Source of the DNA: Climacium dendroides
Lineage: Eukaryota; Streptophyta; Bryopsida; Hypnales; Climaciaceae
Assembly: GCA_950106755.1 (NCBI GenBank)
Contig: OX467083.1
Span: forward strand, 41,430,555-41,494,554
DNA length: 64,000 bases
Reading direction: 5' to 3'
Numbering within the stretch: position 1 is the stretch's first letter; each line of letters starts with the position of its first letter. This document shows, piece by piece, positions 26,228 through 30,131 of the stretch. The position numbers and the translations under genes are program-made. A model generated the notes under the pieces. That model did no database searches, was not told where the DNA came from, and saw only the letters and a list, made by a program, of their open reading frames with translations.

Positions 26228-29200
26228 ATGGAGGGTGGAGAGGAAGAAACTCCAGTAGGTCACCGCTGGACTCGAAAGGAGACAGTGGTTCTGGCAAATG
26301 CATTGAAGACCAGGGAAGAAGAGGCTCATGATGTAACTGCCAAGAGTGCAGTGGGCACTGCCAGTGATAAGTGGGAGAGCGTGTCTAAGTTCTGTCGTAG
26401 CCGTGGTGTAACCCGCTCAAGTGCGCAGTGCAATAGCAGATGGAGCAAAGGGCTCTACCTTGATTATCGGAAAGTTCGAGACTGGCAGAAAAATGGAGGT
26501 ACAGAGTCATATTGGAAGATGAAAGAGAAAAAAAGGAGGGAGCACAAGCTACCTGGAGCTTTGGATGAGGAAGTCTTTAACGTCTTAGTTTCTTTTTTAG
26601 ACCCCGACCTTAAGCAAACAGGAACTCCGGAGTCTGAGGTGGACAGTGACAGACCTTCGCTTGTTGTATCCCCCGTCCCAGGGGCTGACAAAAATGCTAC
26701 TGAAACTCATCAAGCAGTTCCTCCTACACCTGCTTCGGGTTCTACTCCTTCTCATCACTCTGGTATGCTCATTTCGTCCCTCTCCGACTGCATTAGCTGG
26801 GATTGAAGATCATCTTGAATGCGAGGGCTGAATTGTCCCAATCACTCTAAAAGTCGGAAGAGATTTGTGTTTAGGGCGTGAACTTGACTTATTAGTCCAT
26901 GATCCAGATGTCCTGATTCTCTTAGTTTGAAAATCTGGTAACCTGAAGAGATTCGTAACTAAAACTTTTGTAGGATCTTCAGATGGAGCCGTTGGGTCCA
27001 TGTCAGACTTTGCGCGACTGCAGGCTAGAGCAACAAGTGGAGAGTCTTTGCAATCCCTCAAATCCCAGATCGGAGGTTAGTGTTACTCATTGTGCTACTC
27101 CTGCCATGATACCGGCACTCGGTTATAGAGATTGTATAGGAAGCAATGGCGAATCCTGACAATGCCCATATTGGTATTTCCGGACAAACATTTCAACTGA
27201 AGAATCCTCACCGCAATATGCTTAGTTCTTGTATTTTAGTCTCAGGGTCTTGGACATACAAAATATTATTTTTTATCGAGTCACATTTTAGACATTCGCG
27301 CACATTGCTAAAGTGCCCAGTCAGAACCCCCACTTGTCAATTGATACAGTTTTTTCTAACATATTACCATCGTAATCCTTGTCGGTTTCACTGTGTTCAC
27401 ATTATGTTTTGCCCAATGCTGACGTTGGCAACGCTTGTTTTCGTTTTATTCAGAACCTCCTGGAGAGGACAAGAAACCAGTCGTCTCTGGGCAGAAAAGG
27501 AAACGAGCTTCTTCGGCATCTGCAGCAGCCGTACCAGCAACAATATCATCAGACGGTAGAGCTGACAATGGTGATACCCCGAACATCAGGCCGATCCACT
27601 TTACTGTTCCGCCTTTCCTGGACATTCCCCGGTTTGGTGAACCAAATGTTGCCGAGCGGAGCAGCACACCGCACTGGGACGGGCAGCCCAATTTAGCTTC
27701 TTTAGAAGCGCGTCTCGTGGCTCAAAACGAGGCTATATGGAATCGGGTGCGAATGCTCAATGAACAGGTCTGTGTCGTGGCAAGCCTCGTTCTGGGAATC
27801 TGGTGTCCTTAGTGGACCTTTTACGCCTCACCTGTTGTATATTGAGCATGGAAAGATGGCAGTAAATCTTTGTTCAGATGTATTAGACTTTCTCATTTGT
27901 TTTGCTCTTCTGCTCACATATTTATTTTTCTGTTCTAACAGGTAGTGCAAGTGGTGGACGTGAGCAATCAACGCTTGCTAGGTCAAATGCAATCTTTATT
28001 TACTCAAATTCGACTACAGCTACAGGTCTGTAGCTAAATCTAACAATCTGACTTCTTTATGTTGCAATGCTCGGTTTTGTCGTGAAATTGGATCTAGTCT
28101 GATTTTGAACAATATGTAAAAAATAACCTAGGTGTGATCTTCTGGAATTTAAGTGTTGTTGTACGTGTGATCTTTTGGAATCCTAGGTTATTAGCGCTCA
28201 AATGCAAGCACAAGTGCATGAAGCGACTCGATCCGTTCAAGCAGAGCTTCAGACCGCCCTTAAGACTCACACTGAGCAGATCTTCAGCCAACTGCAATCA
28301 CAACATTCTCCAGGAGGTCAAGCTCTTCCAAAAGAGAGGCCCGTACAGGACGTGAACTGGGCTGGTGACAGGACGCCTAGACCATCACCACCTGATATTC
28401 AAGTCGACTTTTCCCAACTTCCAGTTCCTCCTCTCCAGCCTGTTCAACTTCCTCGTGACAAGGAAAGGGTTATCCGACAAAGAACCGGAGAGCACGCCCC
28501 TGACGGGCTGCCAGCTCCTCGAAACAGTTCGCGAATTCAACTTCTTCCACATATTTCTGATGTACAGAAAGCTGAAACTTTGGCAGCCAGCAAGTCACGG
28601 CTCCCTCCACATATAAGTGATGTAGATAGAATACTAAGGCAACAGCAGGGAATGCCCACACCTTTGCCAAACTGGAATCAAGCCTCGTTTGTGATAAGTG
28701 AGCTTGATAGGGTGTTGGGACACAAACCTTTGGACATTCATATGATCCCTCCAGCCCCTGGTCCCTCGAAATCCACATATGTGGCGAATGAACATGACAG
28801 GTCTTTAATACAGCCAGAGGCCCATATACTTGACTCCGCGTCGCTACGACCTCTCCGATTTGATAGACAGGTATGAAACCCACACCAATTACTTGCACAT
28901 TTGTCATTTTAATATTTCTCGACCAAGTTTGATTGGTTTACTGATTTCTTGTGGTTAAAATGTTCAATTCAGGTGCAAGTAGAGGTTCCCGACGTAAAGG
29001 GAAGGACCGACATCCTCAAGGTGCATGGCAGCAACAAGAAATTCGCTGAAGATGTGTCTTTGGAGATTATTGCCATGAGGACCCCTGGCTTCAGTGGAGC
29101 TGACTTGGCCAACTTGCTGAACGAGGCCGCTATTTTGACCGGCAGGAGGGGGAAGTCCGCCATCAGTGCCAAGGAGATCGACGATTCGATTGACAGGATT

Positions 29201-30131
29201 GTTGCGGGTATGGAGGGTACGGTAATGACTGACGGCAAGAGCAAGAGCCTTGTGGCATACCACGAAGTCGGCCACGCCATCTGCGGGTAGGAAGAAGCTT
29301 GCAAATCGTCCAGGGTGTTTTGCTAATGCCAAAGGTTTTTGCTTGCATTTATCGCTGTTGAATTCGTAAGGGAGATGACGTGGTTGTTACAGGCCACTGA
29401 TTAGACTTGTTTTTTCAGTACGTTGACTCCAGGTCACGACGCCGTGCAAAAGGTCACTTTGGTTTCCAGATGTCAAGCTCGTGGTCTCGCATGGTTTATT
29501 CCCAGTGATGACCCAGCTGGGACTTCGAAGCAGCAAATCTTTGCCCGTATTGTTGGTGCTTTGGGTGGCAGAGCGACGGAGGAGGTTGTGTTCGGTGATG
29601 CCGAGGTCACCACTGGAACTTCCAACGACCTTCAACAGGTTATGTCAATGGCCAAACAGGTATAAAACCTAGTGTCCTCAACCTTGGCTGTTATAAGTCA
29701 ATGCCGAATGGGTACTTGTTTGTATGAACTTGAATGAGTGCACTTCTTCACGCCATGATCGAACGAGCTTATTATTTCTATTTGTGCAGATGGTGGCGGT
29801 GTTCGGTATGTCGGACGTCGGGCCATGGGCGTCGATGGACCCGTCATCCCAGGGAGGAGACATGATCATGCGCATGATGGGACGGAACTCCATGTCCGAG
29901 AAGTTGGCTGACAATGTGGACCAGGCGGCGAAGGCCATCTCGGACAAGGCATACGAGGTGGCGTTGGAACACATCAGGAACAATCGTGCTGCCATGGACA
30001 AGATTGTGGAGGTTCTTTTGGAGAAGGAAACTTTGACTGGCGCTGAGTTTAGGGCTATTCTTTCGGAGTACACAGAGTTTCCTGCCGAAAACCGTCAATC
30101 TAACAAACAGGCGGCATCTGTAGCTCTTTAA
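26228..30131 (+). CDS. Chimeric gene: trihelix-like DNA-binding protein joined in frame to the FtsH peptidase part
   Basis: Eight exons keep one frame (2616 nt, 871 aa): 26228-26762, 26974-27075, 27454-27767, 27942-28025, 28187-28870, 28973-29286, 29419-29659, 29790-30131. Residues 12-108 form a trihelix/Myb-SANT-like domain (RWT, DKWESV, QCNSRWSKGLYLDYRKV, SYWKM). Then follow acidic and proline-rich parts, a KRKR basic patch, and a glutamine-rich, probably coiled-coil stretch in exons 4-5. Exon 5 ends with a remnant of FtsH exon 1 (LDSASLRPLRFDRQ); exons 6-8 match exons 2-4 of the intact FtsH near 38 kb, with HEVGH at about 670-674. Walker A and B and the thylakoid signals are absent. Retaining the intron after exon 5 gives an immediate stop and a protein of about 574 aa. 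The alternative is a trihelix gene abutting a dead FtsH fragment; only transcript data can decide. Confidence 0.6.
28829..30131 (+). pseudogene. 5'-truncated FtsH copy forming the 3' half of the chimera
   Basis: This is the duplicated part of the FtsH gene: the last 42 nt of exon 1 plus exons 2-4, with intron positions, phases and exon lengths (314, 241, 342 nt) identical to the intact gene. It has no start codon, transit peptide, membrane segment or ATPase core of its own. It is open to the same stop position, but bears changes at conserved sites: LRPLRFDR for LRPGRFDR and LVSRCQARG for LVPRGQARG. The zinc motif HEVGH is kept. Introns have diverged apart from about 30 bp before exon 6. Confidence 0.8.

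Follow-up and report, generated by a model that had tools for sequence, protein, structure and literature searches.

How did a trihelix protein of a moss come to end in the peptidase region of FtsH, and is the joined product likely to be a regulator, a protease or neither? The question is raised by a locus of Climacium dendroides, in a window of 64,000 nucleotides (nt), the whole stretch of DNA analysed here (C2:41430555–41494554 of a genome of 412.6 megabases in 123 contigs). On the plus strand of the window, eight exons separated by seven GT-AG introns (26228–30131) form one frame of 2616 nt, or 872 codons including the stop, with no internal stops, in which a trihelix (Myb_DNA-bind_4) protein is followed by the lid and M41 peptidase of FtsH. 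An earlier sequence-only reading had proposed this continuous eight-exon frame, and the gene model with its GT-AG introns bore it out. Judged from sequence, this is a chimeric gene: the frame is open across the join, both parents can be identified, and other genomes have the junction too, seen there as the end of exon 5 only. The product is probably a trihelix regulator that still works but has exchanged its tail for one derived from FtsH, the joined transcript and protein being predicted.

The trihelix-derived part occupies exons 1 to 4 and most of exon 5, all on the plus strand, with gene model and orthologue alignment agreeing on the first four. Exon 1 (26228–26762) carries the Myb_DNA-bind_4 domain at residues 12–97 (PF13837), which scores 30.0 bits in Pfam and is above the cut-off of 27, and its start codon is backed by the Physcomitrium patens orthologues, whose N-terminus reads MEGGGEEEHAVGHRWTR. 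The body of the protein follows in exons 2 (26974–27075), 3 (27454–27767) and 4 (27942–28025). Exon 3 includes a basic KRKR run at residue 227, which we take to be a possible nuclear signal, and the product may be located in the nucleus. Exon 5 spans 28187–28870, of which 28187–28825 is trihelix-derived, the orthologue match reaching to about QPEA before the junction; the exact breakpoint is uncertain by some 10 bases.

The remaining 45 nt of exon 5 (28826–28870, plus strand), encoding ILDSASLRPLRFDRQ, are derived from FtsH, with 36 of the 45 identical to 38560–38604. FtsH homology had been claimed at this point, and it was there, although its length had been given as 42 nt. We presume that ILDSASLRPLRFDRQ represents the arginine-finger region of the AAA domain. 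The next intron (28871–28972) stems from FtsH intron 1; without splicing, translation would end at its second codon, a stop right behind DRQV. Exons 6 (28973–29286), 7 (29419–29659) and 8 (29790–30131), of 314, 241 and 342 nt, equal FtsH exons 2, 3 and 4 in length and phase, just as the sequence-only reading had it, and they align without gaps at 309/314, 216/241 and 307/342 identical positions (98.4, 89.6 and 89.8%). Exon 6 encodes the AAA lid and the start of M41 with HEVGH at residue 670, exon 7 continues M41 and includes D748, which aligns with the Asp that we take to be the third zinc ligand of FtsH, and exon 8 ends in an FtsH-derived stop codon. In the joined protein, Pfam places Myb_DNA-bind_4 at 12–97, AAA_lid_3 at 600–643 and Peptidase_M41 at 659–848 (206 bits). 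The lid and the peptidase were the only FtsH domains that Pfam detected in it; neither FtsH_ext nor the AAA core (Walker A/B), which had already been called missing, was found.

The likely donor is an intact FtsH2-type gene (37417–39947, plus strand) that lies 9.7 kilobases (kb) downstream of the insert on the same strand. Its four exons of 1188, 314, 241 and 342 nt encode 694 amino acids with FtsH_ext, AAA, lid and M41. Homology between the two loci spans 28826–30281 (about 1.46 kb) and the donor stretch 38560–40084 (plus strand), and continues past the stop codon into the 3' flank, so that 30132–30281 (plus strand) forms the end of the inserted segment. A blastn comparison of the chimera with the FtsH gene gave a piece of 1397 columns with an E-value of 0.0 and a separate piece over 28826–28900 with 4e-8, values by which the match is far beyond chance. 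The introns and 3' flank of the insert have diverged from FtsH to 53–78% identity, and nine gap events fall in the 483 aligned non-coding columns, as against none in the shared coding sequence (942 nt). The genome yielded no close FtsH2-like loci other than the intact gene and the chimera, the best-scoring others being 43% identical. The FtsH2-type gene thus appears to be single copy here besides the chimera; the related proteins of P. patens number at least two (P0018 and P0031). With the FtsH2/8-type thylakoid metalloprotease (37417–39947; P. patens P0018, “FTSH 2, chloroplastic”) the chimera shares exons 2–4, lid, M41, HEXXH and the later Asp, but it is without FtsH_ext, the AAA core and the N-terminal part, which in FtsH2 holds the transit peptide and membrane anchor.

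What the trihelix gene looked like before could be read from its relatives. A search with the 573-residue trihelix part returned eight proteins, namely P. patens proteins of 680 and 656 amino acids, a Sphagnum jensenii protein of 584 and five fragments; an alignment with the chimera covered six of these, and the exon-5 search described below added five, giving 13 relatives. The moss orthologues P0001 and P0002 (P. patens) and P0004 (S. jensenii) resemble the chimera in the trihelix domain and body, with 74, 72 and 39% identity over 96% of the query, which for P0001 indicates orthology over the body. Where the chimera has FtsH sequence, they carry an additional tail, 115, 108 and 64 residues long, respectively, and the P. 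patens tails contain SSDTVDGDETEGSGQDVGASS, which is replaced in the chimera. All ten junction-free relatives continue for 64–144 residues past approximately the junction point. The Sphagnum tail is the shortest, and the Sphagnum-like tails of P0004 and P0133 resemble those of the other relatives only loosely.

The ancestral C-terminal tail of this group has been replaced in the chimera, and a remnant of it lies behind the new stop codon. A translated search of the window with the tails of P0003 and P0001 found it at 30286–30458 (plus strand), directly behind the FtsH piece, as SGQDAKVNCRCPASSDIVDGDETQKSG, a frameshift, DMGASSERLASSR, a stop, EGGVRARAHYGGPQL and a closing TAA at 30456–30458. 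Against the P0003 tail, 30286–30366 is 71% identical and 30369–30455, in another frame and with a stop, 58%; between the junction and SGQD the old tail has lost about 60 codons, as counted on P0003. Since the remnant adjoins the far side of the FtsH piece, the FtsH segment was inserted into the last trihelix exon. The proposal of a partial FtsH duplication inside or behind the trihelix gene is thereby narrowed to the former, with the old tail behind the insert, and a simple deletion joining tandem FtsH copies to the trihelix gene is ruled out by the remnant beyond the FtsH piece. The remnant is identical to P0003 at 38/56 positions versus 180/203 for the trihelix body (p = 6e-4), and P0001 of P. 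patens, which is intact, shows no such difference between tail (48/59) and body (157/197; p 0.85).

These features suggest that some 1.5 kb of the FtsH2-type gene nearby, from the end of exon 1 to the 3' flank, was copied and inserted, in frame and on the same strand, into the last trihelix exon, with accompanying loss of some 60 tail codons. The most likely route would be break repair with the gene 9.7 kb away as template. Plant studies have dealt with filler DNA at repaired breaks. The FtsH splice sites and stop codon would then have taken over the 3' end, leaving the old tail broken as untranslated DNA. As a result of this takeover, the only orthologue found in the genome would encode a trihelix regulator with an FtsH lid and M41 tail. 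Transposon capture was judged unlikely, as no terminal repeats were noticed on reading the junction sequences; neither these nor target duplications were the object of a search of their own. Inverted repeats flank the donor FtsH segment (33783–34721 versus 48809–52353), their arms 74–91% complementary, in several pieces and about 14–18 kb apart. In P. patens, the longest contig listed for the trihelix orthologue P0001 and that for the FtsH2 protein P0018 both measure 17,432,721 bases, so the two genes may share a chromosome and be old neighbours.

The junction is not confined to this window. A query with the exon-5 frame (229 amino acids) gave ten proteins from 185 candidates, three of which carry the same junction, as QPEA-HILDSASLRPLRFDRQV in P0129, QPQA-HIPDSALLRPGRFDRQV in P0130 and QPPA-HILESTLQQPGRFDRQV in P0131, and the other seven a tail of the ancestral kind; looking for the junction in related genomes was among the checks that the sequence-only reading had proposed. 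RFDRQ followed by a V codon, which fits a GT donor, is present in all four junction carriers, and the read-through beyond it differs among them. In P0130 and P0131 it is VM, like the FtsH intron (VM, then a stop), and in P0129 it is VCNPQQSLAH..LIGLLISFG, compared by eye with V, a stop and NPHQLLAH in the window's intron, which has LIGLLISCG in the next frame. The trihelix bodies of the three differ from the chimera by 7.0, 7.5 and 13.5%, and by 7–16% among the four carriers. Because three other distinct sequences carry it, the junction is old and not an assembly error. That assembly or annotation fused two unrelated loci can hardly be entertained: two close and similar FtsH stretches are present, and such stretches are a known trap for assemblers, but the shared junction in sequences with bodies 7–16% different has already refuted this idea, and the diverged introns and 3' flank and the old tail directly behind the insert speak against it as well.

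A single origin is argued more strongly by the identity of the breakpoint than by the tree. In a tree of 11 rows, one change suffices for the junction label, with support of 66/89, and one change was found in 61% of 200 bootstrap trees, so the tree is compatible with one gain at modest support. A scan of genome contigs with P0129 gave ten pattern matches, none of which was confirmed. The exon-5 body is single copy in the Climacium genome (one match from four candidates); among 48 trihelix matches in all, the next-best domain reaches 38% identity. Several of the trihelix-like matches form mirrored pairs about 1.5–2 kb apart with identical scores, some with stops (for example C41:9083661/9085372, C2:788346/789828, C38:6273005/6275048 and C34:8388794/8390517), and look as if borne by palindromic or mobile units.

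Does the FtsH part still work as a peptidase? The sequence-only reading had taken the kept HEVGH as a hint that it might, and the hint did not hold. A near-identical tract (28940–29312) covers exon 6 and both intron edges, with 8 mismatches in 373 aligned columns versus 213 in 1052 elsewhere, and such runs occurred in none of 2000 shuffles. Differing sites number 5/314 in exon 6 versus 60/583 in exons 7–8 (p = 2e-7). Since the low divergence extends from exon 6 into both introns, recent gene conversion with the full FtsH gene is indicated, and HEVGH as a sign of conserved catalysis was rejected, its exon having been overwritten. The synonymous divergence (dS) of exon 6 is 0.06, that of the 15 junction codons 0.77, from few sites, and exons 7 and 8 together have a pairwise ratio of nonsynonymous (dN) to synonymous change of 0.38 (dS 0.21, dN 0.082).

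The amino acid changes were polarised with 116 FtsH proteins of 117 tried (P0012–P0128; one without the cutting motif, and P0009–P0011 left out). Of the 33 differences between the chimera and FtsH, 27 arose on the chimera side and 5 on the FtsH side, and 1 is derived in both. In exons 7–8, 7 of the 26 chimera-side changes hit sites invariant in 116/116 FtsH proteins; as such sites make up 68 of 194, about 9 hits would be expected without any constraint. The dN/dS ratio (omega) for exons 7–8 is 0.60–0.89 on the chimera branch and 0.10–0.15 on the FtsH branch, the range depending on how the silent changes are shared out, as these are unpolarised with no close DNA outgroup.

The idea that the chimera encodes an active zinc metallopeptidase tethered to DNA, cutting chromatin or nuclear proteins without an ATPase motor, is therefore confronted with HEVGH sitting in a recently converted exon, where its survival is uninformative, with P694S, G696C, T702A, L712G and A745T at positions invariant in all 116 FtsH proteins, with the omega of the chimera branch and with the absence of the AAA core. 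In solved FtsH, HEVGH 670 and D748 do have aligned counterparts (HEAGH and the D of GAAND), the solved 238-residue FtsH chain 2di4 matches the protease part of the query only, and the KRKR run would suit a nuclear protein, yet on balance such an enzyme is improbable. FtsH requires its AAA ring to deliver substrate. Because that ring is needed, and the chimera has neither the AAA core nor the N-terminal membrane and plastid parts, the M41 part is better seen as a tolerated or repurposed C-terminal tail, probably with no ATP-driven protease activity. Between the two products that had been proposed, a trihelix protein with a repurposed tail thus fits the conversion and the seven invariant-site changes better than a metallopeptidase.

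The trihelix body, in turn, evolves no faster than that of the intact P0003 to any significant degree. With five outgroups, the exon-5 changes of chimera and P0003 numbered 8:5, 11:5, 6:5, 7:6 and 10:3 (lowest p 0.09), and P0130 showed no acceleration (5:4 with outgroup P0001). Normal constraint appears to have been kept before the insert and lost behind it. For the FtsH part, the case for selection is made only by the missing indels and the kept junction: exons 7–8 hold no indels where 3.3 would be expected (P about 0.04, a rough estimate), and all splice sites are intact. The frame of the M41 part has probably been kept, and its amino acid content would be under weak constraint at best, or none.

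Several observations weigh against a working regulator with a swapped tail of single origin. Neutral drift of exons 7–8 is not rejected (p = 0.11–0.55), and their freedom from stops would have a probability of 0.16–0.36 under neutrality (30–60 changes), which is not telling. P0129–P0131 are known as exon-5 translations plus the start of the intron, exons 6–8 lying outside the view. The insertion-free P0003 is identical to P0130 at 184/200 positions, above the carrier P0131 (180/200), for which loss, lineage sorting or an older gene duplication are possible explanations. In each of the five exon-5 comparisons the chimera is ahead of P0003 in number of changes, never significantly, and P0129 (11:3, p 0.057) and P0131 (13:5, p 0.096) also lean faster with outgroup P0001. 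Intact tails compared with P0003 are also low in identity (37/53 in P0002, 43/59 in P0005), so that low identity alone is no proof of decay; that the tail is out of use follows more from the frameshift and stop.

The drift and conversion results bear on a further possibility, a truncated trihelix protein in which the intron is retained or the transcript ends early, the frame stopping after LRFDRQV and exons 6–8 being dead FtsH DNA. Exons 7–8 are indistinguishable from neutral drift, and the similarity of exon 6 is owed to conversion, both as this possibility would have it. It keeps an appreciable, if clearly minor, chance because the unspliced intron gives a stop directly after DRQV. Opposed to it are the open frame, the complete set of splice sites and the lack of indels over exons 6–8, together with RFDRQ and the V codon, kept in 4/4 carriers though the later read-through differs.

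With the preferred reading, a regulator that exchanged its tail, the locus shows the whole event together: a donor at 9.7 kb distance, the site of insertion, the broken displaced tail and relatives with and without the insertion. It would be a natural experiment in which the C-terminus of a regulator was exchanged for part of an enzyme, and it illustrates how gene conversion can keep a catalytic motif fresh-looking in a copy that possibly does not use it. It is quite doubtful that a moss lineage has long run on a regulator with a metallopeptidase tail, conversion refreshing the catalytic exon of what would be a DNA-tethered, AAA-free zinc peptidase.

Plants commonly have fusion genes; 310 were reported for four Oryza species by Zhou et al. 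(2022; PMC9199173). Its “type II” fusions, in which one part is the parental gene itself and the other a duplicated piece, are matched by the chimera. They were reported to be mostly less than 1 million years old, whereas the chimera is common to sequences with bodies 7–16% different. The rice gene Os4g33300, described in PMC4195496 as chimeric, bearing a C-terminal kinase and formerly classed as trihelix, is likewise a trihelix-related locus fused to an enzyme domain, but its trihelix domain was lost and the enzyme is another. No description of a trihelix and FtsH/M41 domain pair was found in the titles and abstract beginnings that searches of open-access literature brought up, and the precomputed Pfam column showed a trihelix domain in none of the 120 proteins listed from 7997 FtsH hits (about 344–1095 amino acids only). 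Other domains joined to a full FtsH do occur in database proteins, as in P0055 (WRKY and FtsH, Oldenlandia corymbosa, 987 amino acids) and P0036 (kinase and FtsH, Closterium, 929 amino acids), both of which could be merged gene models.

Elsewhere, Rfam and tRNA scans of the 64,000-nt window gave no matches. Large open frames at 9381–12316 (minus strand) are rich in FGA/FG-like repeats, with a 24-nt tandem unit around 10018–10497; they look nucleoporin-like by eye, and Pfam gave no match for the two of these frames tested. Pieces of a FAD-dependent oxidoreductase gene lie at 1916–3367 (plus strand), and a frame for a protein kinase (PF00069, 221 bits) that looks intact is present at 54034–55155 (minus strand).

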